64,000 nucleotides of DNA from Pseudomonas cichorii (GCF_018343775.1 NZ_CP074349.1:2718001-2782000), one strand, 5' to 3'; shown: positions 25,772-38,897, numbered from the stretch's first letter. A program made the numbers and translations. The notes: generated by a model not told the origin, from the sequence alone.

Positions 25772-26665
25772 CTACAACCCTTGACTGGCCCGTATCAATT
25801 CATAGGCCTTGCGAGCCAGCGGATTCACGGTATTGGGCCTGATCCACAGGTGATAGGTCACGTCGGGCAGGCGCGGCAGGCCATCGTTTTCACCCAGTAC
25901 GCGCATGTCCGGCCCGAGCATTTCCATGCTGCGCGGCGTCACGCCAAGGCCTGCGCGAGTGGCGGCCTTGATGCCGATCAGATTGGACGCCAGGTACGCC
26001 TGTCGCCATGGAATATTGGCCGCTTCCAGGGCTTGCAGGGCATAGCGTCGGTAGATACTCGGTTCATCCACCAGAATCAGCGGCAGCGGTTCGTCCGGTA
26101 CATGGATGTATTGCGCGGAACAGATCCACCACACAGGCGAAGTACGCAAGGCAAAACCTTCCAGGGTCGGATCTTCGCGGGTGGAAATCACCATGTCCAC
26201 CTTGCCGCGATGCAGGTCTTCCATCAGGAACGGGCTGCGGCCCACATCGATTTCCAGGCGCAGACGCGGAGCCGAGCGGGCGATATGGCTCAGCAAGGGC
26301 GGCAGGATGGTGTCGGCGATGTCATGGGGCGAGCCGATGCGCAGCACGCCGCTCAGGCTGCTCTCGCGCAACGAGTTCAGGGCATCGTCATTGAGCGACA
26401 GCATCTGCCGTGCGTGGCGCAGCAGTTGCCGGCCTGGCTCGGTCAGTTGCTTCTGGCGACCTTGTTTCTGGAACAGGCTGACACCCACTTGTTGTTCCAG
26501 ACGCTGCATGTGCTGAGTGACCGAAGACTGGGTGCGCGACAGCTGCAGGCCGGCTTCGGCAAAGCTGTGATGATCGACCACCGCGACAAAGGTGCGCAGC
26601 AGTTCCAGATCGAGCGTCGAGGTCGGGCTTGATGGGGCGGTCATGGTGATTTGTGCTGAATTCAT
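25772..26665 (-). CDS. LysR-family regulator divergent from the sulfur amino-acid operon
   Basis: 297 aa. N-terminal helix-turn-helix (about 18-77: DLELLRTFVAVVDHHSFAEAG and TQSSVTQHMQRLE) and a substrate-binding domain (about 105-295, LSGVLRIGSPHD). Met8 at 26644 is an alternative start. It is transcribed away from the operon starting at 26892 across a 226-base gap, the standard arrangement for LysR control of the divergent operon. On this basis I infer that it senses a substrate or intermediate of that pathway. Its 3' end is 36 bases from the LexA box of the next operon. Confidence 0.9.
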   Translation of the reverse strand: MNSAQITMTAPSSPTSTLDLELLRTFVAVVDHHSFAEAGLQLSRTQSSVTQHMQRLEQQVGVSLFQKQGRQKQLTEPGRQLLRHARQMLSLNDDALNSLRESSLSGVLRIGSPHDIADTILPPLLSHIARSAPRLRLEIDVGRSPFLMEDLHRGKVDMVISTREDPTLEGFALRTSPVWWICSAQYIHVPDEPLPLILVDEPSIYRRYALQALEAANIPWRQAYLASNLIGIKAATRAGLGVTPRSMEMLGPDMRVLGENDGLPRLPDVTYHLWIRPNTVNPLARKAYELIRASQGL

Positions 26666-26696: not shown

Positions 26697-26891
26697 TTTA
26701 TGTTTGGTGTGGTGTTTTTTCTGCGCTTTTTAGTTTTGTTCAATGAATACTGGGTTTTTGTTGGCGGTTGAGCAGGCTCTGCATGGAAAGTTATAACCAT
26801 ATTTGATATTTGAATTTCCGTTAACAGGCAACGATCCGTAATGTCCCGGCATCAGTTCGGGGAACTCCGATCATTTGCCTGGGGAATTTAC

Positions 26892-27731
26892 ATGCCGACT
26901 CGCTCATCCGTTTCACGTTTCTTCCCGGCCATGCTGGGGCTGTTTGCCGGTCTTGCGGTCAGTGGTTCGGCACTGGCCGATGCCACCCTGGACAAGATCC
27001 AGGAGCGTCATCGTCTGGTGGTGGGCGTGTTGTTGTCCGGCGGGCCTTTTGGCTCCATCGATCCGGCGACCCAGAAGCCTAAAGGCGCGAACGTGGATCT
27101 GGCTGAAGACCTGGGACGCCGTCTGGGCGTCGAGGTGGAGCTGGTGTCGGTATTGACGGCCAATCGCGTGCAATTCCTGCAACAAGGCAAGGTCGATCTG
27201 TTGATCGCCAATATGGAGTGGACCCCGGAGCGCGGGCAGATTCTCGGTTCGGTACCGACACCTTTTTACAAGGTCGGTGGCACAGCCGTTGTGCTCAAGG
27301 ACAGCAAGATCACCCGTTGGGAGGATCTCAAGGGCCAACCTGTCTGCACGTCTCAGGGCAGCAGCTACATCAAACCGTTGACCGGGTTCGGTGCCGAACT
27401 CAAGGCGTTCAAAAGCTCCGCCGAATCCTTGCTGGCGCTGCGCGGCAATAATTGTGTCGCGGCTGTGCATGACGCCACGCTGATCAATCCGCTACTGGCC
27501 AGCAACGAGGAGTGGAAGGGCTATCGCGCCATTCTCCCGGAACTGAACCCGGCACCTTCGGTGATCTGGACTCGCCTGGGCGAAACCGACACTCAGGCGC
27601 GTCTGGACAGCATCGTCAAGGACTGGCATCGCACCGGCTGGCTGATCGAAGTCGAAAAACGCCACAACATCACGCCAGCCTCCCCGGCACTGGTGGAGCT
27701 GCATGAGCAGTTCAAGGCCAAGGGTGCCTGA
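26892..27731 (+). CDS. amino-acid ABC transporter periplasmic binding protein (copy 1)
   Basis: 279 aa, family-3 solute-binding protein. Signal peptide ends near residue 29 (GSALA, then DATLDKI). The mature protein has the type-II binding fold: LVVGVLLSGGPFGSIDPAT, VDLAEDLGRRLGVEVELV, the NRVQFLQQGKVDLLIANM segment and VCTSQGSSY. The frame is open further upstream, but the ATG at 26892 has a GGGGAA ribosome site. It is about half identical by eye to the next gene, sharing ADATLDKIQERH and NRVQFLQQGKVDLLIANM, so the two are tandem duplicates. Polar or sulfur-containing amino acid as ligand (inference from the operon). Confidence 0.9.
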   Translation: MPTRSSVSRFFPAMLGLFAGLAVSGSALADATLDKIQERHRLVVGVLLSGGPFGSIDPATQKPKGANVDLAEDLGRRLGVEVELVSVLTANRVQFLQQGKVDLLIANMEWTPERGQILGSVPTPFYKVGGTAVVLKDSKITRWEDLKGQPVCTSQGSSYIKPLTGFGAELKAFKSSAESLLALRGNNCVAAVHDATLINPLLASNEEWKGYRAILPELNPAPSVIWTRLGETDTQARLDSIVKDWHRTGWLIEVEKRHNITPASPALVELHEQFKAKGA

Positions 27732-27749
27732 TCGTTCTCCCATTTCCCT

Positions 27750-27770
27750 GCCGACGCGCCTAGCGTCGGC
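27750..27770 (+). promoter_or_regulatory. intercistronic hairpin between the tandem binding-protein genes
   Basis: GCCGACGC, 5-base loop, GCGTCGGC: a perfect 8-bp stem in the 57-base gap. No T-run follows, so it is more likely an mRNA-stabilising or attenuating element than a full terminator. Confidence 0.5.
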
Positions 27771-27788
27771 CATTCAAGGAAGGCTCCC

Positions 27789-28628
27789 ATGAGCAGATTT
27801 TTTACAGCCAAGACGCTGACCGCGCTGGGGCTGGTCCTGTGCGCCGGGCTGGCCAGTGCCGACGCGACCCTGGACAAGATTCAGGAACGCCACAAGATCA
27901 GCATCGGTGTGATCCTCAGCGGTCCTCCGTTCGGCACCATTGATCCCAAGACCGGCGAGCATCTGGGCTATAACGTCGAGCTGTCGAAGGAAATCGCCAA
28001 GCGTCTGAACGTGGAGCTGGAAACCGTTTCGGTGCTGGCCCCCAACCGCGTGCAGTTCTTGCAGCAAGGCAAGGTCGATCTGTTGATCGCCAACATGCAA
28101 CTGACTGAAGAGCGTGCGCAGATTCTCGATTACGTGCCCACGCCTTACGAGGAAGTCGGCGGGGCGGCGCTGATCCGCAAGGGCGCGGGGATCAGCAAAT
28201 GGGAAGACCTCAAGGACAAGCCGGTGTGCGTGTCCCAGGGCAGCAATTTCATCAAGCCGTTGCAGGAAGTCTATGGCGCGCAAATCAAGGCATTTCGCAG
28301 CCAGTCCGAATCGCTGCTGTCGTTGCGTGGCAATGGTTGTGTGGCCGCGGTGCATGTCAGCCCGACCATGCATACCTTGTTGGCCGATGCGGAATGGTCC
28401 GGCTTCGAGATTCCCTTGGCCACGGACCTGATTCCCTCCAAATCGGTGATCTGGCTGCGCAAGGGCGAGAAAGACATTCAGGCCCGTCTGGACGCCATTG
28501 TTCGTGACTGGCATCGCAGCGGCTGGTTGATCGAACTGGGTCATCGCACCGGTATGGCGCCGTCCCAGGCCTTGCATGATCTGCATGAGCAATACCGCAA
28601 TGCAGCGCCGCTGGCTGCCACGCCATGA
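27789..28628 (+). CDS. amino-acid ABC transporter periplasmic binding protein (copy 2)
   Basis: 279 aa, same family and length as copy 1. Signal peptide to about residue 25 (LCAGLASA, then DATLDKI). It keeps ISIGVILSGPPFGTIDPKTG, the identical NRVQFLQQGKVDLLIANM block and VCVSQGSNF. Differences are concentrated around the ligand-cleft positions (for example IANMQLTEER against IANMEWTPER), so the two proteins may bind related but not identical ligands. An AGGAAGG ribosome site precedes the ATG. The stop overlaps the start of the FAD dehydrogenase gene (ATGA), which ties transport to metabolism. Confidence 0.9.
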   Translation: MSRFFTAKTLTALGLVLCAGLASADATLDKIQERHKISIGVILSGPPFGTIDPKTGEHLGYNVELSKEIAKRLNVELETVSVLAPNRVQFLQQGKVDLLIANMQLTEERAQILDYVPTPYEEVGGAALIRKGAGISKWEDLKDKPVCVSQGSNFIKPLQEVYGAQIKAFRSQSESLLSLRGNGCVAAVHVSPTMHTLLADAEWSGFEIPLATDLIPSKSVIWLRKGEKDIQARLDAIVRDWHRSGWLIELGHRTGMAPSQALHDLHEQYRNAAPLAATP

Positions 28629-30046
28629 GTGATGGACTGTTCCAGGCATTGCAGCAACTGTTGGGCGCCAGTCATGTGCAGACTGGCGAACAGGCCCGTG
28701 AGCGCTTGACTGACAAGCAGGAACGCTATGTCGGGCAAGTGGTCGCGGCGGTGCGTCCTGCGGACACCGAACAGGTCGCCGCCGTGGTGCGTTTGTGTGT
28801 CGCCCATGCTGCACCCGTGGTGGTGCAGGGCGGCAACACGGGCCTGATGGGCGCTGCAACGCCGGATGCCAGCGGCAAGGCCGTGTTGTTGCTGCTGGAG
28901 CGCATGAACCGTGTGCGTGAGATCGACACCGATAACGACACCCTGACGGTCGAAGCCGGCTGCATCCTGCAACATCTGCAGGACATCGCTCGCAAGGCTG
29001 ACCGCCTGTTCCCGCTCAGCCTGGGCGCGCAAGGCAGTTGCACCATTGGCGGCAACCTGGGCACCAATGCCGGTGGCAACGCCGTATTGCGTTATGGCAA
29101 TGCCCGCGAACTGACGCTGGGGCTTGAAGTGGTCACGGCCCAGGGTGAAATCTGGGAAGGGCTGCGCGGTCTGCGCAAGGACAATACCGGTTATGACCTG
29201 CGGGACCTGTTCATCGGCAGCGAAGGTACGCTGGGCATTATCACTGCAGCGACCTTGAAACTGTTCCCACTGCCCAAGGCGCAACTCACGGCATTTCTGG
29301 CGTTTGAGTCACTGGCCCAGGCGGTGCGTTTCCTGTCCCACGCCCGTGCCGGGTTTGGAGCAAGCCTGACCGCTTTCGAGCTGCTTTCGGCTGACTGCCT
29401 GACCTTGCTGCGTGAACAGTTTCCACAAGGGCCGCAACCCTTCAGCCATGCTGCGTACCCTTGGTTCGCCTTGCTGGAACTGTCCGATAACCACAGCGAA
29501 AGCCATGCGCGGCAGAGTTTTGAAGCCGTGTTAGGCGATGCATTTGAAGTCGATCTGCTCAGCGATGCCCTGATTGCCGAAAGCCTGGCCCAGAGCCAGG
29601 CGCTGTGGCAGTTGCGCGAGAACATGAGCGATGCCCAGCGGCGTGCCGGGCGCAATATGAAGCACGATATCTCGGTGCCGATTTCCCGTGTCGTTGAGTT
29701 CGTGACCCGGACCGATGCCTTGTTGCAAGAGCACTTTCCCGGTGTACGCAACTTCACGTTTGGTCACCTGGGTGATGGCAACCTGCATTACAACGTCGCG
29801 CATCCGCTGGGCTCCACGGTCGAGGCGCACATGGCTCGTTACGCCGAACTGAGCGAGCGGGTGCACGACAGCGCCCATGCCCATGGCGGCTCGATCAGCG
29901 CCGAACACGGCATCGGCCAGCGCAAGCTGGACATGCTGTCCCGTTACAAAAGCCCTGTGGAACTGGATCTGATGCGCCGCATCAAGCAGGCACTGGACCC
30001 GAACAACCTGCTCAATCCGGGCAAGGTACTGGAGGCCCGAGCATGA
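28625..30046 (+). CDS. FAD-linked 2-hydroxyacid dehydrogenase (GlcD/D-2-hydroxyglutarate dehydrogenase-like)
   Basis: 473 aa. N-terminal FAD-binding type-4 domain (about 35-215) with VVVQGGNTGLMGAATP and the NLGTNAGGNAVLRYGN phosphate-binding stretch, and a C-terminal oxidase domain (about 240-470) with HLGDGNLHYN and the ISAEHGIGQRKLD motif expected of D-lactate/D-2-hydroxyglutarate dehydrogenases. It should oxidise a D-2-hydroxyacid to a 2-oxoacid, passing electrons to a quinone or ETF. No membrane segment. In this operon a plausible substrate is the hydroxy analogue of the transported amino acid (inference). Coupled by ATGA overlaps on both sides. Confidence 0.86.
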   Translation: MSDGLFQALQQLLGASHVQTGEQARERLTDKQERYVGQVVAAVRPADTEQVAAVVRLCVAHAAPVVVQGGNTGLMGAATPDASGKAVLLLLERMNRVREIDTDNDTLTVEAGCILQHLQDIARKADRLFPLSLGAQGSCTIGGNLGTNAGGNAVLRYGNARELTLGLEVVTAQGEIWEGLRGLRKDNTGYDLRDLFIGSEGTLGIITAATLKLFPLPKAQLTAFLAFESLAQAVRFLSHARAGFGASLTAFELLSADCLTLLREQFPQGPQPFSHAAYPWFALLELSDNHSESHARQSFEAVLGDAFEVDLLSDALIAESLAQSQALWQLRENMSDAQRRAGRNMKHDISVPISRVVEFVTRTDALLQEHFPGVRNFTFGHLGDGNLHYNVAHPLGSTVEAHMARYAELSERVHDSAHAHGGSISAEHGIGQRKLDMLSRYKSPVELDLMRRIKQALDPNNLLNPGKVLEARA

Positions 30047-31260
30047 GCATCGGCTTGTCAAAACGCGTACAGCGCGTCTCGCTTTCGGCCAACGCCGCCG
30101 CCAAATCCCGGGCTACCGCCTTGCGCGATGCCGGGGTGGATATTCTCGACCTGACCACCGGCGAGCCGGATTTCGACACCCCTGAACACATCAAGCAGGC
30201 AGCCTTCAAGGCCATTGCCGCGGGTGCCACCAAATACACACCGACCCCCGGTGTGCGGGCCTTGCGCGAAGCGGTGCAAGGCAAGTTGCAGCGCGAAAAC
30301 GCTCTGGATTATCCATTGGCTTCCATCGTGATAGCCAACGGTGCCAAGCAGATCATCTTCAATGCATTCGCCGCGACCCTGAATGACGGCGACGAAGTGC
30401 TGGTGCCAGTGCCGTACTGGCCGTCATTCCCGGACAGTGTGCGTTTCAATGGCGGTGAGCCGGTGTTTATCGAGTGCGGCCTGGAGCAAGGCTGCAAGCT
30501 GACCCCGACGCAACTGGAACGCCATATCGGTGAGCGAACGCGCTGGCTGATCCTCAACGGGCCGGGCAACCCCAGTGGCGCGGTGTATAGCGAGGCGGAG
30601 CTGTTGGCGCTGGCTGACGTGCTGCGTCGTCATCCGCACGTGCTGGTGTTGCTGGACGAGTTGTACGAGCACATTCGTTTCGACGGGCAACCTGCCCAGA
30701 GCTTGCTCAATGTCGCGCCGGACTTGCAGCCGCGCTGCCTGCTGGTGGGCGGCGTGTCCAAGACTTACGCCATGACCGGCTGGCGGGTCGGCTTCGGGGC
30801 CGGACCGCATGAACTCACCACGGCCATGACCGTGGTGCAATCGCAGTCGACCTCCGGAGCTTCATCGGTGGGGCAGGCTGCGGCATTGGCAGCGTTTGAG
30901 GGCGGGCTGGAGTTTCTGCCGCAACACGTGGCGGCCTACCACCTGCGCCGGGACTTGCTGGTTGAAACCCTGAGTGCCGTCGATGGCCTTGAAGTGCTGG
31001 TGCCCCAGGGCGGCTTCTTTGTTTTCGTGCGGTGCGCCGGGTTGCTGGGTCGCTATCGCCCGGACGGCCTGCAACTGGAAAACGATGCCGATGTGGTCGC
31101 CTGGCTGCTGGAGTCCGGCGTGGCCGGTGTCGCAGGCAGTGCTTATGGTTTGTCGCCGTGGTTTCGCCTGTCGATTGCCACGGCCACCGAAACCGTGATC
31201 GAAGCCGGGCAGCGTATTGCCCGTGCCTGTGCGCAGTTGAGTGTGGGGGAGGCGCCATGA
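30043..31260 (+). CDS. class-I PLP aminotransferase
   Basis: 405 aa, aspartate-aminotransferase fold type I. Seen: LTTGEPDFDTPEHIKQAA, YTPTPGVRALREA, LNGPGNPSGAVYSE (substrate Asn), LLDELYEH, and the PLP lysine in GGVSKTYAMTGWRVGF. It probably interconverts the transported amino acid with its 2-oxoacid, which would link to the 2-hydroxyacid dehydrogenase just upstream. General architecture matches aspartate/tyrosine aminotransferases; the true substrate cannot be read from sequence. Overlaps by four bases with both neighbours, so translation is coupled through to the permease genes. Confidence 0.88.
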   Translation: MSIGLSKRVQRVSLSANAAAKSRATALRDAGVDILDLTTGEPDFDTPEHIKQAAFKAIAAGATKYTPTPGVRALREAVQGKLQRENALDYPLASIVIANGAKQIIFNAFAATLNDGDEVLVPVPYWPSFPDSVRFNGGEPVFIECGLEQGCKLTPTQLERHIGERTRWLILNGPGNPSGAVYSEAELLALADVLRRHPHVLVLLDELYEHIRFDGQPAQSLLNVAPDLQPRCLLVGGVSKTYAMTGWRVGFGAGPHELTTAMTVVQSQSTSGASSVGQAAALAAFEGGLEFLPQHVAAYHLRRDLLVETLSAVDGLEVLVPQGGFFVFVRCAGLLGRYRPDGLQLENDADVVAWLLESGVAGVAGSAYGLSPWFRLSIATATETVIEAGQRIARACAQLSVGEAP

Positions 31261-31991
31261 GTCACTTGCTGGAGTCGTTCGTACAGTGGACGGCCGGATT
31301 TGGCCTGAACTACGCCTTTCTGCTGGATGCCTATCAGCGCGGCACGATGGTCGACGGGGCGTTGACCACCTTGCTGCTGTGCCTGCTCACCATCGTTGGC
31401 AGCCTGCTGGTGGGTGTCGCCCTGGCGGCCATGCTCACTTCGGGCAAGCCATGGCTGCGTTCGCCAGCCAGAGTATTCATTGAAGTCACCCGCAATACGC
31501 CGACGCTGGTGCAACTGTATTGCGCCTTTCTGGTGTTGAACATGCTGTTGACCCAGGCCGTCGGTGCAGCCAATCCGCTGACACCTTTCGCCTGGGTGGT
31601 GATCGTGATTTCTCTGCACAAGGGGGCTTTCCATGCTGAAGCCTTGCGGGCCGGTATCGAAGCGGTTCCTTCCGTGACCCTGGAAGCCGCCAGCTCTCTG
31701 GCTTTCAACAGTCGCCAGTTGCTGTGGAACGTGCAGTTGCCACTGGCTGTGCGTTTTGCCTTGCCATCGCTGATCAATAACCTGATCGATCTGGTGAAGA
31801 TGACTGCCGTGGCTTCGGCCATCGCGGTGGGGGACATCACCTATGCGGCGATCATGATCTGGACCCAGAGCGATAACGTGCTGGAACTGATGATCCTGAT
31901 CCTGAGCTTTTTCGGCTTGCTCAGCTTTATCGTCAACTGTGCAGGGCGCGCCCTGGAATCACGCCTGAGGATGCCCGGCTATGGCCATTGA
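31257..31991 (+). CDS. amino-acid ABC transporter permease (1)
   Basis: 244 aa, His/Glu/Gln/Arg-opine family permease. Several membrane segments are visible (LLLCLLTIVGSLLVGVALAAML; LVQLYCAFLVLNMLL; FAWVVIVISL; LMILILSFFGLLSFIV). The EAA loop (EAASSLAFNSRQLLWNVQLPLAV in pieces: EAASSLAF, NVQLPLAVRFALPSL) contacts the ATPase. The open frame extends upstream, but the ATG at 31257 sits in an ATGA overlap with the aminotransferase stop. Forms a heterodimer with the next gene product in the inner membrane. Confidence 0.9.
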   Translation: MSHLLESFVQWTAGFGLNYAFLLDAYQRGTMVDGALTTLLLCLLTIVGSLLVGVALAAMLTSGKPWLRSPARVFIEVTRNTPTLVQLYCAFLVLNMLLTQAVGAANPLTPFAWVVIVISLHKGAFHAEALRAGIEAVPSVTLEAASSLAFNSRQLLWNVQLPLAVRFALPSLINNLIDLVKMTAVASAIAVGDITYAAIMIWTQSDNVLELMILILSFFGLLSFIVNCAGRALESRLRMPGYGH

Positions 31992-32769
31992 TTCATCGGT
32001 TGCCACGCCTGTCGCGTGGCCGCGTCGCCATTTACTGGCGCTGACACTGGTTGTTCTGGCGGTTGCCTGGCTGATTTTCGGTGCGCCGAACAGCCCGGTG
32101 TTCCTGGCATTGATGCAGTGGTCGCCTGCTTTGGCAGTGGGTTTTGGCCAGAACATCCTGATCAGTCTGGTTGCCATCGGTCTGGGGACGGTGTTCGGGC
32201 TGCTGGTCGGCGCTCTGGGAATGTCGCCTTTCAGGCTGCTGCGCCTGCCTGCGCGAATCTGGATACAGATCTTTCGCAATGCGCCCTGGCTGGTGCTGAT
32301 CTATTTCACCACTTATGTGTTCCCGTTCGAGATCAAGATCGGCAGCACCTATATCTCGTTTCCCGACTGGGTGAAGGTCACCATCGGCCTGGCTTTGCCG
32401 GCCAGTGCCAATGTCGCGGAAATCTTCAGGGGAGCCGTGGCGTCGATCCCCAGCACCCAATGGGAAGCCGCACGTTCGCTGGCGTTCACCCGTGGGCAGA
32501 TATTCACCTCGATCATCCTGCCGCAGTGCTTCAAACGCATGCTGCCGCCGTGGATGAACCTCTACGCGGTTATCACCATGGGCACGGCACTGGCTTCGCT
32601 GGTGGGTGTGCATGACGTGATCGACACCGCGCAGATTGCCAGCAACACCGTCAATCAGACCGGTTTCACCGTGATCATTTATTGCAGCCTGCTGGTGCTG
32701 TTCTTTGCCTATTGCTACCCGATTTCCCGTCTGACCCAACGCCTGGAGCGACGTTATGCCTTCTATTGA
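31981..32769 (+). CDS. amino-acid ABC transporter permease (2)
   Basis: 262 aa, second permease of the same importer. Starts 11 bases inside the previous gene. Membrane segments include LLALTLVVLAVAWLIFG, ILISLVAIGLGTVFGLLVGAL and a C-terminal TVIIYCSLLVLFFAYCYPI. The EAA motif is WEAARSLAFTRGQIF followed by IILPQCFKRMLPPWMN. The N-terminal region is longer than in permease 1. Overlaps the ATPase gene by 14 bases. Confidence 0.9.
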   Translation: MAIDSSVATPVAWPRRHLLALTLVVLAVAWLIFGAPNSPVFLALMQWSPALAVGFGQNILISLVAIGLGTVFGLLVGALGMSPFRLLRLPARIWIQIFRNAPWLVLIYFTTYVFPFEIKIGSTYISFPDWVKVTIGLALPASANVAEIFRGAVASIPSTQWEAARSLAFTRGQIFTSIILPQCFKRMLPPWMNLYAVITMGTALASLVGVHDVIDTAQIASNTVNQTGFTVIIYCSLLVLFFAYCYPISRLTQRLERRYAFY

Positions 32770-33592
32770 TTCTGGCGCCGAGCCTCTGGTCAGTCTGCGC
32801 GACCTGCACCTGTCATTTGGCAGCAACCTGGTGCTCAAGGGCATCGATCTGGATGTGCAGCGCGGTCAGGCAGTGTCGATCATCGGCCCGTCCGGTTCGG
32901 GCAAGTCAACCATCCTGCGCTGCATCACCGGGCTGTTGCAGACCCAGCGCGGCACCATCCGCGTGGGCAATACCGACGTTCATGCCCTGACCCGCGAAGC
33001 GGAGCGTATCGAACTGCGCAAACGCGTGGGTTTTGTGTTCCAGCAGTACAACCTGTTTCCGCATCTGTCGGTGCTGGAAAACCTGGTAATCGCCCCGCGC
33101 AAGGTGCTGGGGATCGAGCGCGCCGAAGCTGAGAAACAGGCGCGTGCCTTGCTCGCCAAGGTGCGTATGGAACACAAGGCCGATGCTTATCCTGGGCAAT
33201 TGTCCGGTGGCCAGCAGCAGCGAGTTGCGATTGCCCGGGCCTTGACCATGCGCCCGGAACTGATCCTGTTCGACGAAGTGACCTCGGCCCTGGACCCGGA
33301 AACTGTCGGTGAAGTGCTGACCGTAATCCGCGAGCTGACCGAAGAAGGCATGACCTGTGTGCTGGTGACCCACGAAATGCGTTTCGCCGAAGAAATCAGC
33401 GACGTGGTGTATTTCACCGAGAACGGCCTGATCGTCGAGCACGGCAGCGCCGAGCAGATATTCCAGCGTCCGACCAGTGAGCGAACCCGCGAGTTTCTGC
33501 GCCACGCTCTGGGTGATTCCGGACGTCGTCCGCCGGTGTCCTCCGACCCGTTTGCACTGAGCAATATCAGCCGTTACAGCCTGTCCGTATAA
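32756..33592 (+). CDS. amino-acid ABC transporter ATP-binding protein
   Basis: 278 aa, GlnQ/HisP-type ATPase. Walker A GPSGSGKST near residue 45, Q-loop FQQYNLFPHLSVLENL, signature LSGGQQQRVAIARAL, Walker B LILFDEVTSALDPE and the H-loop VTHEMRFA are all intact. The C-terminus carries about 25 extra residues past the usual end. With the two permeases and two binding proteins it completes an importer; the ordering with enzyme genes between binding proteins and permeases is unusual. Confidence 0.93.
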   Translation: MPSIDSGAEPLVSLRDLHLSFGSNLVLKGIDLDVQRGQAVSIIGPSGSGKSTILRCITGLLQTQRGTIRVGNTDVHALTREAERIELRKRVGFVFQQYNLFPHLSVLENLVIAPRKVLGIERAEAEKQARALLAKVRMEHKADAYPGQLSGGQQQRVAIARALTMRPELILFDEVTSALDPETVGEVLTVIRELTEEGMTCVLVTHEMRFAEEISDVVYFTENGLIVEHGSAEQIFQRPTSERTREFLRHALGDSGRRPPVSSDPFALSNISRYSLSV

Positions 33593-33622
33593 CTAAAATC
33601 GAACCCCACCGGGAGCTACCTG

Positions 33623-34216
33623 ATGAGCAACGCAAACCGAACCCAAGTGATTGAAAATTTTCTGCAGCAGATCCGTGTCATCAACCAGCGCGGCGTAGAC
33701 CGCGAGGCGTTGAAGGAAATCATCGCGCTGCTGGAAGACTTGGCCAAGCGCCATGACCTGTTCAACTTTACCGAGTTTCCTGCGCCGGTACCGGGGCAGG
33801 GCGAGACTGCTTTCCGCTATCGCCTGAACGATGATGGCGAGACCCCGACCCTGTACATGAACTCGCTGCTGCCGGGCAAAAGCACCTTGCCGCACAACCA
33901 TGAAACCTGGGCGGTGATCGTTGCCGTGCAGGGCCAGGAGATCAACTACGTCTGGGCGCGTACCGACGATGGCAGCGACCCGGCCTTCGCTCGTCTGGAG
34001 CTGGAAAAGGAAGTCATTGTCCAGCCAGGCACCCCCATCGGTTTCCTGGGCGAAGACTTGCATGGCATCAAGGTCACGGGCGAAGAGCCGACCTTGCACT
34101 TTCACCTGTATGGCCGCCCGCTGGAATCGCTCAACGGGCGTTTCGGTGTCAATGAAGAAGGCCGTGTCCTGAACTACAACGCCTCGCAGATGGCACCGTC
34201 GATTCAGGCTTATTGA
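33623..34216 (+). CDS. cupin-type thiol (cysteine) dioxygenase family protein
   Basis: 197 aa. Cupin fold resembling cysteine dioxygenase / 3-mercaptopropionate dioxygenase, non-heme iron enzymes that oxidise a thiol to a sulfinate with O2. Seen: the metal-ligand pair HNH in STLPHNHETWAVI (residues about 93-95), a third His in GEDLHGIKV, and the LHFHLYG strand that parallels S-HVYG in known thiol dioxygenases. Substrate specificity cannot be read. A ribosome site (CGGGAG) precedes the ATG. It sits between the transporter ATPase and the rhodanese/PLP-lyase fusion, which strengthens a sulfur role for the operon. Confidence 0.8.
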   Translation: MSNANRTQVIENFLQQIRVINQRGVDREALKEIIALLEDLAKRHDLFNFTEFPAPVPGQGETAFRYRLNDDGETPTLYMNSLLPGKSTLPHNHETWAVIVAVQGQEINYVWARTDDGSDPAFARLELEKEVIVQPGTPIGFLGEDLHGIKVTGEEPTLHFHLYGRPLESLNGRFGVNEEGRVLNYNASQMAPSIQAY

Positions 34217-34246
34217 TAGCCAGCACAGGTTTCCCCTTTCACTTTT

Positions 34247-37018
34247 ATGAGCCACCTCATGAGCCAGACCACCACCGCGGCCCAACTACAACAATGGCTG
34301 TTCGACGGGCAGGAAATTGCCCTGTTCGACCTGCGCGAACATGGCCAGTACGGCGAAGCCCATCTGTTCCATGGCGTCACGCTGCCCTATAGCCGACTGG
34401 AGCTGGATATTCGTCGCCTGGCACCCAACCCTGGCGTGCGGCTGGTGATCTATGACCAGAATGGCGGCGATATCGCTTCGCGTGCCGCCTTGCGACTGGA
34501 AGCGCTCGGCTATCGTCAGGTGCATATTCTGGAAGGGGGCGCCGATGGCTGGCAGGCCGCAGGTCTGCAACTGTTCGCGGGTGTGCATGTGCCGTCCAAG
34601 GCGTTTGGCGAACTGGTGGAAGAGGCTCGCCATACGCCGCATATCAGCGCCACCGAACTGGCGCAGCGTCAGGCTCAGGGCGAGTCGCTGATGGTGCTGG
34701 ACGGCAGACCATTCGACGAATACCGCAAGATGACCATTCCCGGTTCTGTGTGCTGCCCCAATGGCGAACTGGGTTATCGGCTGCCGGAACTGGTCCGCGA
34801 CGAACACACGCCGATCATCGTCAATTGCGCCGGGAGGACCCGCAGCATCATCGGCGCGCAGACGCTGATCGACCTGGGCGTGAAGAACCCGGTCTATGCC
34901 CTGGAAAACGGAACCCAGGGTTGGTATCTGGCCGATCTGCAACTGGAGCACGGCAGCACCCGACGCTACCCGGATGCCGTATCGCCCGAGTCGCTGGCCC
35001 TGCAGCGGGATGCCGCCCAGGCTTTGGCCGAACGTGCAGGGGTGCAGACGGTCAGCTCCAAACAGGTTACCGGCTGGGCCGCAGACAGCGGGCGTAGCCT
35101 GTTCCTGTGCGATGTACGAACCGCCGAGGAGTTTGCGGCAGGCACATTGGCGGGTGCGCAACATACGCCGGGCGGCCAGTTGATTCAGGCGACGGATTTA
35201 TATGTCGGCGTGCGTCAGGCGCGGCTGGTGCTGGTGGACGACGAAGGCATTCGCGCCCCGATTGTCGCCAGTTGGCTGAGGCAACTGGGACATGATGCCT
35301 ATGTGCTGGCTGATGGCGTGAACAGTGGTTTGTCGCTGCCTGTCGCGGGCGAGTATGTTCAGCCGGGCCTGCCGGGCATCAGCGTGCAACTGCTCGCCGA
35401 CGCCTTGAAAGACAGCACGGTAGCGCTTATCGATCTGCGTCCGAGCACAGGTTTTCGCAAAGGCCATATTGAAGGTTCACGCTGGTCGATTCGTCCGCTG
35501 CTGGCTGCCGCCGTTGCTGATGAGTCCCGGCCTCTGGTGCTGATTGCCGATGATCCGGCTCTGGCGCAACTGGCGGTAGAAGAGTTGCCACAGGCGCAGC
35601 GTCAGCAGGTGCGTCTGCTGGACGGCGGGATCAAGGCCTGGCAAACCGCCGGGCTACCGTTGCGCGAAGACAGTGCCAGCCTGGCGGACGAGCAGTGCAT
35701 CGATTTTCTGTTCTTCACTCATGACCGGCATTCCGGCAACAAGGACGCTGCCCGCCAGTACCTGGCCTGGGAAATCGGTCTGCTGGGGCAGATGACCGAG
35801 CAGGAAATTGCCAGCCTCAAGCCCTTATCCGCAAAAAAGCCTGAGCGCCCGTCACAGAACCCCTTGGTCAAGACCCGGTTGATCCATGCCGCGCGTACGG
35901 CCAAGGGCAGTGGCGTGCGCGGGGTGAATGTACCGGTTTCGCGCATGAGCACCGTACTGTTCGACAGCCTCGGGCAGATGCGCGATATCCGCAAGCGCCG
36001 CGATACCGAGCGCCTGTTGAGCTATGGGGCGAGGGGCAATCCAACGGGATTTGCCCTGGAAGACCTCGTGACTGAACTGGAAGGCGGCTATCGCACCCGA
36101 TTGTTCAGCACCGGCCTTGCGGCAGTGGCGCAGACTTTCCTGGCCTATCTGCGCCCCGGCGATCATGTCCTGATAACCGATGCCGTGTATTCGCCGGTGC
36201 GGCGTGTGGCCCGTGACTTCCTTGAGCCATTCGGCATTCAGGTCAGCTATTTCAGGGCCGACGGCCAGGGGCTGGAAGGGCAACTGCAGGCCAATACCCG
36301 CATGGTCTACACCGAAGTGCCGGGTTCGTTGCTCTACGAACTCTGCGACTTGCCGGCCATTGCCGCGCTGTGCAAACCACGAAACATCCTGCTGGCGGTG
36401 GACAACACCTGGGGCTCGGCCTACCTCTATCGGCCACTGGAGCTGGGCGCGGACATTTCCATCATGGCCCTGACCAAGTACCTGTGCGGTCATAGCGATG
36501 TGGTGATGGGCAGCGTCTGCACCCGTGAAGACGTCTGGCAGCCGCTGGGAAGGATGAGCGACACCTTCGGCAATGCGGTCAGCCCCGATGACGCCTATCT
36601 GGTCCTGCGCGGTGCCCGCACCCTGGCTTCACGCATGGAAACCCACGAGCGCCAGGCCCTTGAAGTCGCGTACTGGCTGAACGAACAACCGCAAGTCCGC
36701 CGTGTTTTCCATCCAGCCTTGCCGGACCACCCCGGCCACGCCCTGTGGAAGCGCGACTTCACCGGCAGCAACGGCTTGCTGTCCTTCGAGTTCGAGTCCT
36801 CGGACCCGGGTCAGCTGGAGCGCTTTATCGGCGCGTTGCAACTGTTCGGGCTCGGTGCTTCATGGGGCGGCTACGAAAGCCTGATCACCGTGGCCAACGT
36901 CAGTGATCGCGACAATGAAGCCGATCGACTGCTCAACCCGGTGTTGCGCTTGCATATCGGGCTGGAGGATGTGGCAGCGTTGATCGAGGATTTGCAGAGG
37001 GGGTTTGGGCGAGGATGA
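34247..37018 (+). CDS. four-rhodanese / Cys-Met-metabolism PLP lyase fusion
   Basis: 923 aa. Four rhodanese-like domains (about 8-115, 135-240, 270-370, 385-475) are joined by a linker (about 480-565) to a Cys/Met metabolism PLP enzyme domain (about 570-923). Only domain 2 has the sulfur-carrying loop with cysteine (NCAGRTRS, Cys194). Domains 1, 3 and 4 have YDQNGG, VDDEGIR and ADDPALA at that place and cannot carry persulfide. The PLP part keeps YGARGNPTG, YRTRLFSTG, DNTWGSAYL and the PLP lysine in LTKYLCGHSD (Lys744). It resembles cystathionine beta/gamma-lyases, so it may release a thiol or sulfide that is passed to Cys194 (inference). Met5 (34259) is an alternative start. Confidence 0.88.
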   Translation: MSHLMSQTTTAAQLQQWLFDGQEIALFDLREHGQYGEAHLFHGVTLPYSRLELDIRRLAPNPGVRLVIYDQNGGDIASRAALRLEALGYRQVHILEGGADGWQAAGLQLFAGVHVPSKAFGELVEEARHTPHISATELAQRQAQGESLMVLDGRPFDEYRKMTIPGSVCCPNGELGYRLPELVRDEHTPIIVNCAGRTRSIIGAQTLIDLGVKNPVYALENGTQGWYLADLQLEHGSTRRYPDAVSPESLALQRDAAQALAERAGVQTVSSKQVTGWAADSGRSLFLCDVRTAEEFAAGTLAGAQHTPGGQLIQATDLYVGVRQARLVLVDDEGIRAPIVASWLRQLGHDAYVLADGVNSGLSLPVAGEYVQPGLPGISVQLLADALKDSTVALIDLRPSTGFRKGHIEGSRWSIRPLLAAAVADESRPLVLIADDPALAQLAVEELPQAQRQQVRLLDGGIKAWQTAGLPLREDSASLADEQCIDFLFFTHDRHSGNKDAARQYLAWEIGLLGQMTEQEIASLKPLSAKKPERPSQNPLVKTRLIHAARTAKGSGVRGVNVPVSRMSTVLFDSLGQMRDIRKRRDTERLLSYGARGNPTGFALEDLVTELEGGYRTRLFSTGLAAVAQTFLAYLRPGDHVLITDAVYSPVRRVARDFLEPFGIQVSYFRADGQGLEGQLQANTRMVYTEVPGSLLYELCDLPAIAALCKPRNILLAVDNTWGSAYLYRPLELGADISIMALTKYLCGHSDVVMGSVCTREDVWQPLGRMSDTFGNAVSPDDAYLVLRGARTLASRMETHERQALEVAYWLNEQPQVRRVFHPALPDHPGHALWKRDFTGSNGLLSFEFESSDPGQLERFIGALQLFGLGASWGGYESLITVANVSDRDNEADRLLNPVLRLHIGLEDVAALIEDLQRGFGRG

Positions 37019-37273: not shown

Positions 37274-38019
37274 GTGCCGCCATTGCTCTGGACAATCTGA
37301 CCGTCGCTTACGAACGCCGTCCGGCGGTGCATCACATCAGTGGTCGTTTCGAGGCGGGTAGCCTGACTGCCATCGTCGGCCCCAATGGTGCGGGCAAGTC
37401 CACGCTGATCAAGACCATTGCCGGGACCATGAAGCCAGCGGCGGGGCGTGTGGATCGAGGCCGGTTGGCGACCCGCACGTTGGGTTATCTGCCACAGGCG
37501 GCGGAGATCGATCGTAGTTTTCCCTTGAGCGTGGCCGATACCGTGGCCATGGGTGCTTGGCACAGCATCGGCCCGTTTCGCGGCCTGACTCGCAATCACG
37601 CCAGGCTCACCCGGGATGCGCTGAAAACCGTCGGGCTTGAGGGCTTTGAGGCGCGCAGCATCGGATCTCTGTCCTCCGGGCAGTTCCAGCGGGTGCTGTT
37701 CGCACGGCTGCTATTGCAGGACGCCTCGGTGATTCTGCTGGACGAGCCTTTTACCGCCATCGATGCCCGCACCACCCGCGATCTGCTGGAGCTGGTCCGG
37801 GTCTGGCATGGGCAGGGACGCACCGTCATTGCGGTGTTGCACGATATCGATCAGGTCCGTCAGCACTTTCCGCAAACCCTGTTGATGGCCCGCGAAACCA
37901 TTGCCTGGGGAGCGACAGCCGAAGTATTGAGCGATGCCAATCTGCGGCGCGCCCGCAATATGGCCGAGTTCTGGAGTGCGGATGCTCAGGTCTGCGATAC
38001 CGAAGGTGAGCATTCATGA
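37270..38019 (+). CDS. metal (zinc/manganese) ABC transporter ATP-binding protein
   Basis: 249 aa, ZnuC/AztA/MntB-type ATPase. Walker A GPNGAGKST near residue 37, signature LSSGQFQRVLFARLL, Walker B VILLDEPFTAID and H-loop VLHDIDQV are present. The frame is open for 11 codons upstream, but the ATG at 37270 overlaps the stop of the small peptide gene. The operon is complete with permease and cluster A-I binding protein. Metal inferred as zinc from the upstream Zur-type site. Confidence 0.9.
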   Translation: MSAAIALDNLTVAYERRPAVHHISGRFEAGSLTAIVGPNGAGKSTLIKTIAGTMKPAAGRVDRGRLATRTLGYLPQAAEIDRSFPLSVADTVAMGAWHSIGPFRGLTRNHARLTRDALKTVGLEGFEARSIGSLSSGQFQRVLFARLLLQDASVILLDEPFTAIDARTTRDLLELVRVWHGQGRTVIAVLHDIDQVRQHFPQTLLMARETIAWGATAEVLSDANLRRARNMAEFWSADAQVCDTEGEHS

Positions 38020-38885
38020 TGCTCTATGCCACGCTGATCGAGCCTTTTGTCGAGTTCGGTTTCATGCGCCGGGCTTTGGTGGCCTGCCTCGCGTTGGGAG
38101 TCGGTTCCGGTCCGGTGGGTGTGTTGCTGATGTTGCGGCGCATGAGCCTGGTGGGGGATGCCATGAGCCATGCGGTCCTGCCGGGCGCGGCACTGGGTTT
38201 CATGGTGGCAGGCCTGTCGCTGCCGGCCATGGGCATTGGCGGTCTGATCGCCGGGCTTGCCGTGGCTTTGCTGTCTGGGCTGGTCAGCCGCCTGACCGCC
38301 TTGCGCGAAGACGCCAGCTTCGCCAGTTTCTACCTGACCTCACTGGCTGCCGGAGTATTGATCGTCTCCATGCACGGCTCCAGTGTCGATCTGCTGCACG
38401 TGCTGTTCGGCACCATCCTGGCCATCGATGACAGCGCGATCTATATGGTCGGCGGCATTGCGTCATTCACCCTTATCCTGCTGGCCGTGATCTATCGCCC
38501 GCTGGTGCTCGAATGTTTCGATCCGGGATTCCTGCGTGCCGTTGGCGGCATGGGTTCGCTGTACCACGTGCTGTTTCTGCTGCTGGTCGTTTTGAACCTG
38601 GTGGCGGGTTTTCAGGCGCTCGGCACGCTGATGGCGGTGGGCATGATGATGCTGCCCGCCACGGCTGCCCGGTTCTGGGCCAGCTCATTGAGTGCCCTGA
38701 TGCTGATCTCGACGGTATTGGCGACCGTTTCGGGGCTGATCGGCCTGATCGTTTCCTATCACCTTGGCGTGGCGTCCGGGCCGGCCATCGTTCTGACCGC
38801 CAGCGTCTTTTATGGCTTTTCGCTGCTGTTCGGCCGCACGGGCATCTTGCGTCGACTGTTTCCAAAACCCCACCTGGCCAACTGA
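38016..38885 (+). CDS. metal ABC transporter permease
   Basis: 289 aa, ABC-3 family integral membrane permease with about eight hydrophobic segments. Seen: the family pattern GPVGVLLMLRRMSLVGDAMSHAVLPG (in pieces LLMLRRMSLVGDA and SHAVLPGAALGF), RLTALREDASFASFYL and TLMAVGMMMLPATAARFWA. It pairs with the upstream ATPase, whose stop overlaps its ATG by four bases. One permease gene means a homodimer. Confidence 0.92.
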   Translation: MMLYATLIEPFVEFGFMRRALVACLALGVGSGPVGVLLMLRRMSLVGDAMSHAVLPGAALGFMVAGLSLPAMGIGGLIAGLAVALLSGLVSRLTALREDASFASFYLTSLAAGVLIVSMHGSSVDLLHVLFGTILAIDDSAIYMVGGIASFTLILLAVIYRPLVLECFDPGFLRAVGGMGSLYHVLFLLLVVLNLVAGFQALGTLMAVGMMMLPATAARFWASSLSALMLISTVLATVSGLIGLIVSYHLGVASGPAIVLTASVFYGFSLLFGRTGILRRLFPKPHLAN

Positions 38886-38897
38886 AAAGGGCATGTC

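Follow-up and report, generated by a model that had tools for sequence, protein, structure and literature searches.

A Pseudomonas operon that may import and degrade carboxylated cysteine S-conjugates, with an all-or-none cassette predicted to add their 2-hydroxy analogues

Nine genes and a divergent lysR gene in Pseudomonas cichorii form an operon that would import and degrade carboxylated cysteine S-conjugates, and a three-gene cassette within it would add the 2-hydroxy analogues. Taken as a whole, with substrates read from protein families and neighbouring genes, we consider this assignment slightly more probable than its negation. It is partly in line with the preliminary description of the locus, which had suggested an operon for uptake and catabolism of organosulfur amino acids and named thioethers among the candidate substrates. 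New here are a rhodanese-lyase fusion, the all-or-none behaviour of the cassette, an Asp/Val split between two binding proteins (SBP1 and SBP2), and a dehydrogenase that largely keeps its second-carboxylate site.

Results

Organization of the operon

The window, that is, the whole stretch of 64,000 nucleotides analysed, contains nine ORFs at 26892-37018, all on one strand and each with an ATG start. ORFs and Pfam matches agreed with the gene number and families given in the preliminary description, including the divergent LysR gene. Overlaps of 4-14 bases, also mentioned there, were found at five of the eight junctions (4, 4, 4, 11, and 14 bases); at the remaining three, the genes are separated by 57, 30, and 30 bases. 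The features are as follows.

25772..26665, minus strand: lysR, LysR-type regulator gene (297 aa), divergent from the operon; Pfam HTH_1 and LysR_substrate
26789..26822, no strand: nearly invariant 34-base block between lysR and sbp1; alignment of 76 intergenic regions, window included
26892..27731, plus strand: sbp1, periplasmic binding protein; Pfam SBP_bac_3
27789..28628, plus strand: sbp2, second binding protein, cassette gene 1; Pfam SBP_bac_3
28625..30046, plus strand: FAD-dependent D-2-hydroxyacid dehydrogenase, cassette gene 2; Pfam FAD_binding_4 and FAD-oxidase_C
30043..31260, plus strand: aspartate-type class I aminotransferase, cassette gene 3; Pfam Aminotran_1_2
31257..31991, plus strand: permease 1 of a polar amino-acid ABC importer; BPD_transp_1, TIGR01726 above cut-off
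31981..32769, plus strand: permease 2 of the same importer type; BPD_transp_1, TIGR01726 above cut-off
32756..33592, plus strand: importer ATPase; ABC_tran, best NCBIfam match TcyN, below its cut-off
33623..34216, plus strand: cupin thiol dioxygenase of predicted mercaptosuccinate dioxygenase type; 8vni match and predicted fold
34247..37018, plus strand: fusion of four rhodanese domains and a cystathionine beta-lyase-like PLP enzyme; four Pfam Rhodanese stretches and Cys_Met_Meta_PP
34247..35806, plus strand: rhodanese part of the fusion, about residues 1-520; four Rhodanese stretches, 1yt8 at E 6.5e-112
34826..34828, plus strand: codon of Cys194, the conserved rhodanese cysteine; residue conservation in alignment
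35873..37006, plus strand: C-S lyase part of the fusion, residues 543-920, PLP lysine K744; TIGR01324

The 34-base block is probably the LysR site, the promoter, or both, and its 17-base core has a single exact match in the whole genome. LysR would presumably turn the operon on, with the thiol as inducer.

Conservation of the core genes

Loci were fetched by the fusion protein, which yielded 79 in Pseudomonas, and a gene was counted as present at ≥80% coverage. By this measure, the cupin and the rhodanese part were present in all 79 loci, lysR in 78, the lyase part in 76, and sbp1 and the importer genes in 75. Since core genes recur in 75-79 of the 79 loci, the operon is not a chance assembly. 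A search of 298 same-genus genomes at E 1e-200 matched the fusion in 52; the match was almost full-length in 51 of them and spread over two contigs in the other one.

Relatives of the cupin were also matched in 21 plasmid records, eight of which were examined. The lyase gene lay inside the cluster in seven of the eight (L116-L122), adjoining the cupin in five and beyond the rhodanese in two. One of them, L121, whose cupin shares 89% identity with 8vni, has the same linkage of LysR, dioxygenase, beta-lyase, and rhodanese genes as the window, and none of the ORFs searched there was recognized as an importer gene. The LysR encoded beside the dioxygenase is 57% identical to that of the window in L121, and 61% in L120. 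All five plasmid relatives with an amino-acid-type importer (L116-L119 and L122) have the lyase, which fits an amino-acid substrate rather than mercaptosuccinate itself.

A simpler scheme, to which we give quite a low probability, is that the importer carries mercaptosuccinate or another mercapto-acid as such, the lyase being a passenger or serving another reaction. As a matter of fact, Advenella and Variovorax use mercaptosuccinate via homologous genes, and the importer binding protein becomes more abundant on mercaptosuccinate (PMC5373536, available text). Moreover, no lyase match was found beside the cupin relative and rhodanese in L109, L110, L111, L112, and L123, so the pair does not need the lyase; the pair in L123, from Marinobacter, lies near TRAP transporter genes. 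Against this scheme, the linkage of the lyase in seven of the eight plasmid relatives and its fusion in Pseudomonas indicate that it is probably not a passenger, and SBP1 keeps an amino-acid-type Asp (see below).

A dioxygenase related to mercaptosuccinate dioxygenase

The cupin gave no Pfam or NCBIfam match at E 1e-3. Its best PDB sequence match was the mercaptosuccinate dioxygenase 8vni (E 2.3e-36), followed by 6xb9 (4e-4). The predicted fold also ranked 8vni first (TM 0.84/0.86, rmsd 1.5 A); chains of the 3-mercaptopropionate dioxygenase type reached TM 0.69-0.77, and mammalian cysteine dioxygenases about 0.6. By sequence and predicted fold, the cupin is thus a homologue of mercaptosuccinate dioxygenase and may act on mercaptosuccinate. 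In the Marinobacter locus L123, the cupin match was in two pieces, and that gene may be broken.

The three-His metal site (H91, H93, and H147) and the second-shell residues H161 and Y163 were kept in 79/79 Pseudomonas and 10/10 other loci. R65, kept in all 79 Pseudomonas loci, is common to 8vni, and the aligned residue is Gln in 3-mercaptopropionate-type proteins. R165 is also shared by the window and 8vni, but is Leu in 46 of the 79 loci. At conserved positions, the cupin group has R67 for L, L158 for R, and E/D94 for T relative to the verified type. These changes, the variable R165, and an identity of only 38-40% to verified mercaptosuccinate dioxygenase mean that the specificity of the cupin may differ from that of the verified enzyme.

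A four-domain rhodanese fused to a C-S lyase

In Pseudomonas, the lyase is joined to a rhodanese of four domains in one protein, which is new relative to the published cluster. A conserved active-site cysteine of the rhodanese part is found in the second domain only: Cys194 is present in 79/79 Pseudomonas loci and in the 10 other relatives examined, and none of the four other cysteines is kept in all 10 non-Pseudomonas relatives.

The lyase part scored 396.1 bits against the cystathionine beta-lyase model TIGR01324 (cut-off 365.9). It shares with Escherichia coli MetC this family model, the PLP lysine (K744 aligned to MetC K210), and the positions of S339, W340, and R372, and differs from it in being fused to a rhodanese. 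The pockets differ too, MetC R58, Q115, D116, and Y238 being replaced by Ala, Arg, Arg, and Asp. Three of these MetC residues are on the distal side of the substrate, as we assume for D116 and Y238, and correspond to A595, R653, and D772 in the window. MetC R58 contacts the distal carboxylate of cystathionine (PMC5025676, available text). D116 is also missing from the unlinked Pseudomonas lyases L108 and L114, so lyases outside the cluster share its loss. The fused lyases and those of L116-L121 have an acidic residue at position 238, where L122 has Ala; such a residue does not obviously suit a dicarboxylate substrate.

Two binding proteins with different predicted ligand sites

The nearest solved chains to SBP1 were 2yjp, then 1xt8, both of which we take to be cysteine-binding. 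SBP1 Asp194 is aligned to an Asp in both and is Asp in all 75 Pseudomonas loci with sbp1; in L088, sbp1 is split into two ORFs. In SBP2, Val190 takes the place of this Asp in 59/59 Pseudomonas proteins. SBP1 and SBP2 differ by 20 fixed differences, among which are four charge changes, the Asp-to-Val replacement being one of the four. The lobe-2 Asp of SBP family 3 presumably pairs with the alpha-amino group of the ligand. We infer that SBP1 would bind an amino acid, namely a cysteine S-conjugate, and SBP2 a 2-hydroxy acid. A plasmid relative, L119, has an sbp2-like gene, and neither the FAD enzyme nor the aminotransferase was found within the 24.6 kb fetched.

The solved relatives of SBP1 could instead point to catabolism of cystine or lanthionine, which we regard as unlikely. 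The lyase would then produce the persulfide thiocysteine from cystine, or cysteine from lanthionine; the rhodanese would take the sulfane sulfur, the cupin would be a cysteine or persulfide dioxygenase, and the aminotransferase would remove cysteine sulfinate. A rhodanese-lyase fusion suits a persulfide product, and cupin R65 lies where, as we take it, cysteine dioxygenases have their carboxylate-binding Arg. The ATPase is best matched by the cystine importer model TcyN, but below its cut-off. The cupin, however, is far closer in sequence and fold to mercaptosuccinate dioxygenase than to cysteine dioxygenases, the aminotransferase is missing from 16 compact operons of the 79 loci, and the D-2-hydroxyacid dehydrogenase and SBP2 are left unexplained.

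A cassette gained and lost as a block

The cassette (sbp2, FAD dehydrogenase, and aminotransferase) was present in 59 of the 79 loci and absent from 16, the other four being incomplete. Its three genes were ≥80% covered in the same 59 loci and gave no match in the other 20, in 16 of which sbp1 and the permease adjoin. Cassette state changed 14 times on the tree, and at least 11 changes are forced by well-supported branches. The cassette thus comes and goes as a block, independently of the core. It is found inside the same operon in Cupriavidus as well (L118).

No trace of the FAD enzyme or aminotransferase was found between sbp1 and the permease in the 16 loci or in 5/5 more divergent same-genus loci. 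Since such cores exist, a 2-oxoacid step cannot be on the obligatory path. This argues strongly against the order put forward in the preliminary description, in which cleavage follows the conversion of an imported D-amino acid or mercaptolactate to a 2-oxoacid. Both a D-2-hydroxyacid dehydrogenase and an aminotransferase are present, but the substrates of beta-lyases of this family are amino acids rather than 2-oxoacids, and we consider this order very improbable. A D-amino acid substrate also fits poorly with the FAD enzyme, which is of the D-2-hydroxyacid dehydrogenase kind.

Among named solved relatives, the nearest to the FAD enzyme is D-2-hydroxyglutarate dehydrogenase (E 1.3e-85), the putative oxidoreductase 3pm9 scoring E 6.5e-131. 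Human D-2-hydroxyglutarate dehydrogenase R386, H434, H441, E475, and H476 correspond to R331, H381, H388, E427, and H428 in the window. Across the 58 Pseudomonas loci aligned, of 59 with a match, these metal, C1-carboxylate, and hydroxyl residues were kept in 58/58, except H388 (57/58). Lys401, Asn443, and Thr390 hold the second carboxylate in the human enzyme (PMC7801405, available text). The second-carboxylate residues T390, K401, Y432, and N443 correspond to S335, K346, F379, and N390, that is, two are kept, one is conservative (Ser for Thr390), and one is changed (Phe for Tyr432); S335, K346, and N390 are found in 58/58 loci. As this site is largely kept, the hydroxy acid would probably carry a distal carboxylate.

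Another possibility was that the cassette has only the importer in common with the core and handles a dicarboxylate of another kind, for instance D-2-hydroxyglutarate or D-malate. The FAD enzyme would then yield 2-oxoglutarate or oxaloacetate, and the aminotransferase glutamate or aspartate. The largely kept D-2-hydroxyglutarate site would agree with this, as would the nearest solved chains of the aminotransferase, 6f35 and 6f77 (aspartate aminotransferases B and A), and a gain and loss independent of the core. Yet SBP1 and SBP2 are paralogues whose genes accompany the same permeases, and in Cupriavidus, too, the cassette sits inside this operon; we hold this possibility to be improbable.

Discussion

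Proposed pathway

For the cysteine S-conjugate pathway that we favour, substrates would be of the type R-S-CH2-CH(NH2)-COOH, with one or more carboxylates on R. SBP1 and the ABC importer would take up the amino acid, and the C-terminal lyase of the fusion would, as its family suggests, cut the beta C-S bond to give pyruvate, ammonia, and a mercapto-carboxylate. The cupin would oxidize the thiol to a sulfinate, from which sulfur would be shed as sulfite, by analogy with the chemistry reported for the Advenella and Variovorax enzymes. The related Advenella cluster also speaks for the pathway: in a mercaptosuccinate/succinate comparison, the importer binding protein rose 22.7-fold (5.6 in an apparent second spot) and the importer ATPase 7.0-fold (6.8), and growth on mercaptosuccinate was restricted by deletion of the dioxygenase gene and suppressed by deletion of lysR (PMC5373536, available text). 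The rhodanese part may handle released or sulfane sulfur via Cys194. Where the cassette is present, the same permeases would also admit the D-2-hydroxy analogue, delivered by SBP2; the FAD enzyme would convert it to the 2-oxo acid, and the aminotransferase would make the L-amino acid that the lyase can cleave.

Fumarate succinates thiols, a general kind of damage in metabolism. The most specific candidate substrate is S-(2-succino)cysteine (2SC), which forms spontaneously from fumarate and cysteine; its beta-cleavage would yield mercaptosuccinate, the substrate of the closest characterized dioxygenase. We tentatively propose, as an idea that is more probably wrong than right, a third 2SC route in which the rhodanese-fused lyase gives pyruvate and mercaptosuccinate, the latter going to succinate and sulfite, and in which the all-or-none cassette adds the thiolactate form, with a binding protein devoid of the amino-group aspartate. 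No report of such a route was found in the literature searched. If it exists, it would explain why bacteria carry mercaptosuccinate dioxygenases, give these enzymes a natural source of substrate, and account for the company of a C-S lyase and an amino-acid importer in which their genes occur. The two binding proteins, with their difference at the amino-group aspartate, and the linked gain and loss of the dehydrogenase and aminotransferase would clearly illustrate how a catabolic operon extends its substrate range, here from an amino acid to the hydroxy analogue.

Comparison with known systems

The preliminary description held the system to be undescribed, but its core gene set is already known from Advenella mimigardefordensis DPN7, where it was published as a mercaptosuccinate cluster (MIM_c37410-37480) that, like the Pseudomonas operon, has LysR, a cupin dioxygenase (Msdo), a cystathionine beta-lyase, a rhodanese, and a PAAT amino-acid ABC transporter; part of it, a rhodanese and a lyase beside the dioxygenase gene, was noted in Variovorax paradoxus B4. 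In contrast to Pseudomonas, rhodanese and lyase are separate genes there. The available text mentions no second binding protein, FAD dehydrogenase, or aminotransferase, has mercaptosuccinate itself as the substrate used, and gives lyase and importer no role (PMC5373536).

The same P. cichorii genome has a second pair (L109) of a 3-mercaptopropionate dioxygenase gene (7979-8629) followed by a rhodanese gene (8620-10173) homologous over the whole four-domain part. This dioxygenase differs in having Gln where Arg aligns to R65, and the 19 kb of L109 contain nothing that matches the operon's importer or lyase genes.

The proposed substrate 2SC would be shared with the Bacillus subtilis yxe/scm operon and the Enterococcus/Dickeya 2SL lyase, and the term "mercaptosuccin" is absent from the main text of both reports (PMC9706529, PMC12757645). 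The enzymes of these routes (acetyltransferase, monooxygenase or 2SL lyase, and deacetylase) were not represented in the Pfam matches of the ten proteins of the operon, so it could only provide a different route to the same substrate. In the available text, both named routes proceed by acetylation and split the adduct on the succinyl side, with recovery of cysteine (PMC9706529, PMC12757645), whereas the Pseudomonas lyase would cut on the cysteine side and so release pyruvate and mercaptosuccinate.

Organization of the operon and its fusion protein

As the preliminary description had stated, nine co-directional genes lie opposite a divergent lysR. They encode, in order, two paralogous binding proteins (SBP1 and SBP2), an FAD dehydrogenase, an aminotransferase, two permeases, an ATPase, a cupin homologous to mercaptosuccinate dioxygenase, and a rhodanese/lyase fusion. 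Pfam and NCBIfam assigned every gene to a family except the cupin, for which neither gave anything at E 1e-3. The features were as follows.

25772-26665, divergent: lysR
26789-26822: nearly invariant 34-base intergenic block
26892-37018: the nine co-directional genes
31257: start of the first permease gene, which overlaps the preceding gene by 4 bases
34247-37018: gene of the fusion protein
37300-39791 (+): znuC, znuB and znuA-like genes for a zinc importer, identified by reading translations

The fusion protein carries four rhodanese stretches in residues 1-520, with 1yt8 as nearest structure, followed by a cystathionine beta-lyase-like enzyme in residues 543-920. Its conserved active-site cysteine, Cys194, belongs to the second rhodanese stretch and was found in 79/79 Pseudomonas loci and 10/10 others. 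The protein is 96% identical to its counterpart in Pseudomonas cichorii MAFF 302096. Of 298 same-genus genomes, 52 gave a match at E 1e-200, which covered nearly the whole protein in 51 and was split across two contigs in one. A search with the junction region, which scored only the 7997 candidates with the most shared words, returned 504 proteins; both Pfam domains were present in all of the best 120 of 504, and the organism-named ones among these were Pseudomonas. The two halves are separate genes in Burkholderiales and Aminobacter. One position of the fused lyase pocket is acidic. The replacement by R of D116 of the E. coli lyase MetC was considered as a sign of a new substrate, and this marker was weakened because Pseudomonas lyases unlinked to the operon also lack D116.

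The zinc importer genes are directly downstream of the operon. Such genes adjoin it in 13/79 Pseudomonas loci (L021-L030, L032, L037, L098); for the remaining 66 stretches, the listing had no match to them.

A core operon and an all-or-none cassette

Scanning one genome of each species yielded 83 relatives, from which 80 loci were retained (79 from Pseudomonas). The full gene set occurred in 59/79, and a compact form (lysR-sbp1-perm1-perm2-ATPase-cupin-fusion, with sbp1 and perm1 adjacent at a gap of at most 227 bases) in 16/79. Four loci were incomplete or cut (L030, L076, L087, L090), L030 being devoid of lysR; among the 75 others, L089 stops inside the fusion gene and sbp1 of L088 is split over two ORFs. 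The lyase part was absent or short in L087, L089 and L090.

The genes for SBP2, the FAD enzyme and the aminotransferase, hereafter the cassette, each showed coverage of 80% or more in one and the same set of 59 loci and had no match in the remaining 20, counts that were confirmed without ORF picking. A FastTree tree built from 76 fusion proteins implies 14 changes of cassette state, at least 11 of these being forced by branches with 95% support. The distribution of the cassette showed no more clustering than labels assigned by shuffling, with a value as low in 177 of 500 shuffles. All five same-genus copies of greater divergence (64-67% identity) were compact, with an sbp1 bearing Asp at position 194. 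Because of these locus counts, the tree and the divergent compact copies, we conclude that neither the FAD enzyme nor the aminotransferase is needed for the core to work, and that the three cassette genes act as one unit.

The 34-base block is nearly invariant across 76 intergenic regions; within the genome, its 17-base core is matched exactly only once, at this operon. The block probably represents a LysR site or promoter belonging to the operon itself. When the core was searched in the same genome at up to 3 mismatches, there were six 3-mismatch matches versus four for a reversed control, and thus no sign of a regulon shared under this motif. Visual inspection of the lysR-dioxygenase spacers in three loci from outside Pseudomonas (L100, L120 and L121) did not reveal the block.

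Binding proteins and cassette enzymes

In family-3 binding proteins, one Asp pairs with the alpha-amino group of the ligand. SBP1 Asp194 aligns with this residue in 2yjp and 1xt8, and is Asp in 75/75 Pseudomonas loci with sbp1 as well as in SBP1 of L116-L119, the clusters of Variovorax, Caballeronia, Cupriavidus and Paraburkholderia; an additional SBP1-like protein of L118 has Glu there. In SBP2 the residue is Val in 59/59 Pseudomonas loci and in L119, and L118 has both Val and Ile. Neither the FAD enzyme nor the aminotransferase was seen in the fetched stretch of L119 containing the sbp2-like gene. Where a column is fixed in both Pseudomonas groups, SBP1 and SBP2 agree in 103 cases and disagree in 20; charge changes in 4 of these 20, Asp194-Val190 being one of the four.

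The nearest structure to the FAD enzyme is 3pm9, a putative oxidoreductase. Among named enzymes, human D-2-hydroxyglutarate dehydrogenase came first (E 1.3e-85), and D-lactate dehydrogenase gave 4e-50. According to PMC7801405, the human enzyme holds the second carboxylate by Lys401, Thr390, Tyr432 and Asn443, and most enzymes acting on lactate or glycolate have other residues in place of these four. Their counterparts in the operon enzyme are Lys346, Ser335, Phe379 and Asn390, identical in 58/58 aligned Pseudomonas loci (59 with a match); in L118 the Ser is replaced by Gly. The closest structures to the aminotransferase are those of aspartate aminotransferases B and A (6f35, 6f77). Taken together, the site residues and the aspartate-type aminotransferase point to a putative substrate with a distal carboxylate.

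The cupin

Against 8vni, a solved and verified mercaptosuccinate dioxygenase, the cupin gave E 2.3e-36, the second-best match being a 3-mercaptopropionate dioxygenase at 4e-4. An AlphaFold2 model (mean pLDDT 90.7) also matched 8vni best in the PDB (TM 0.84/0.86, rmsd 1.5 A). Chains of the 3-mercaptopropionate dioxygenase type scored lower (TM 0.69-0.77), as did mammalian cysteine dioxygenases (about 0.6). The cupin is rare, found at E 1e-10 in 5/369 genomes of the class, this one counted. For P0002, the organism-named entries among the best 120 of 476 homologues are Pseudomonas.

Conserved positions differ between the operon cupin group and the verified mercaptosuccinate dioxygenase type. From strand periodicity, R65 and R67 would face the metal. 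R165 was dropped as a sign of mercaptosuccinate binding, the position being L in 46/79 loci; nor does its R/L split track the cassette (25/34 with, 4/12 without). The cupin tree was poorly resolved, with 4/19 inner branches starred. In the tree and alignment, the row of a cupin-rhodanese ORF from L118 was disregarded as a mis-cut cupin segment, and the homology of that ORF was established separately from this row.

Related clusters outside Pseudomonas

A plasmid collection held 21 records with a cupin match, of which 8 were opened. L116-L119 possess an importer, a cupin 51-56% identical to the window's, rhodanese genes, and a separate lyase gene adjoining the cupin. In L118, from Cupriavidus necator, three binding-protein genes precede those of an FAD enzyme (65-66%) and an aminotransferase (58%), ordered as in the P. 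cichorii operon. A second type, L120/L121, has LysR (61/57%), a cupin (63/89% to 8vni), a rhodanese, and a lyase that in both records is 57% identical to the window's lyase; L120 includes a TctC-type receptor gene, and no importer was identified in the L121 cluster. In Aminobacter L122, lyase, cupin and rhodanese precede a branched-chain-type importer. Cupin and rhodanese are adjacent in L110, L111, L112 and Marinobacter L123; no lyase match appeared in the fetched stretches of these loci or of L109, from the P. cichorii genome itself. L100, a Burkholderiales contig, stops inside the rhodanese. Overall, a cupin of the thiol dioxygenase type shares a fetched stretch with a rhodanese of four domains in 13/13 loci (L100, L109-L112, L116-L123), the lyase being present in 7 of 12 uncut loci and in 5/5 importer-bearing clusters opened outside Pseudomonas.

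Other genes were noticed in the fetched loci.

L108, 9554-10726: the genome's second lyase, 58% identical to the fused one, adjoining a glutathione S-transferase gene
L109, 7979-10173: the genome's second pair of thiol dioxygenase and rhodanese genes, belonging to the Gln-type 3-mercaptopropionate dioxygenases
L116, 13919-19517: in Variovorax VAI-C, hydantoinase/oxoprolinase genes directly after the cupin-lyase genes
L117, 17050-17826 (-): TauE/SafE-type sulfite exporter gene adjoining the Caballeronia cluster
L118, 16107-20114 (-) and 821-2206 (-): beside the operon, genes for an AstE/AspA-type deacylase and a luciferase-type monooxygenase, and a large ORF that combines a dioxygenase-like cupin with four rhodanese domains
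L123, 10001-10539: Marinobacter plasmid cupin matching in two overlapping pieces, annotated in part only

The L116 genes could hint at glutathione-derived conjugates, those flanking L118 possibly represent another sulfur-compound route, and the L117 exporter is consistent with sulfite as end product. The L123 cupin gene may be broken as deposited.

Proposed pathway and substrate

The analysis established the gene identities, their linkage, the behavior of the cassette and the residue patterns; in the route proposed next, the substrates, the direction and sequence of the steps and the part played by the rhodanese are inferred. SBP1 and the ABC importer would bring in a carboxylated cysteine S-conjugate, which the fusion lyase would beta-cleave to pyruvate, ammonia and a mercapto-acid. 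By analogy with relatives, in which the dioxygenase reaction and LysR regulation have been reported, the mercapto-acid would be dioxygenated to a sulfinate that loses sulfite, and Cys194 would handle sulfur. SBP2 would import the D-2-hydroxy analogue, to be oxidized by the FAD enzyme and converted by the aminotransferase into the L-amino acid, which then would enter the core.

The importer belongs to the polar amino-acid class, whereas mercaptosuccinate is not an amino acid. On balance, we favor a carboxylated cysteine S-conjugate, in this general sense, as the operon substrate. S-(2-succino)cysteine is the sole natural cysteine conjugate considered whose beta-cleavage yields mercaptosuccinate; as the specific substrate we hold it possible but doubtful, because S-carboxymethyl- and S-(2-carboxyethyl)cysteine are candidates too. 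The differences at conserved cupin positions and the acidic lyase pocket position also count against certainty on the conjugate. Plant thiolactate conjugates may be a natural source; "thiolactic acid" is absent from the best 10 of 72 papers matched for them. For S-(2-succino)cysteine, the available portions of PMC9706529 and PMC12757645 describe breakdown by acetylation, a split on the succinyl side and deacetylation, and the term "mercaptosuccin" is absent from those of both. The system offers a proposal on the natural substrate that can be tested.

Comparison with the published cluster

Within the paper collection searched, gene names combined with Pseudomonas led to no paper on the fusion operon and matched only PMC5373536, on Advenella. 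Among the best 15 of 119 papers with at least three of mercaptosuccin-, cysteine, beta-lyase and dioxygenase, this was also, by title and abstract, the only paper concerning such a cluster. In its available portions, the Advenella cluster comprises LysR, mercaptosuccinate dioxygenase, cystathionine beta-lyase, rhodanese and a PAAT amino-acid importer, and the Variovorax gene is likewise adjoined by a rhodanese and a cystathionine beta-lyase (PMC5373536). The Advenella dioxygenase had a Km of 0.2 mM and an activity of 17.1 umol/mg/min; growth on mercaptosuccinate was restricted by deletion of the dioxygenase gene and suppressed by that of lysR (PMC5373536). In a comparison of mercaptosuccinate with succinate, the importer binding protein was up 22.7-fold and the ATPase 7.0-fold, with apparent second spots at 5.6 and 6.8, respectively; the same portions assign the lyase and the importer no role (PMC5373536). 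The preliminary description had proposed an undescribed system for uptake and catabolism of organosulfur amino acids. Its observation was correct and its interpretation partly so: the operon is a Pseudomonas variant of this known cluster, and its new features are the fusion and the all-or-none cassette.
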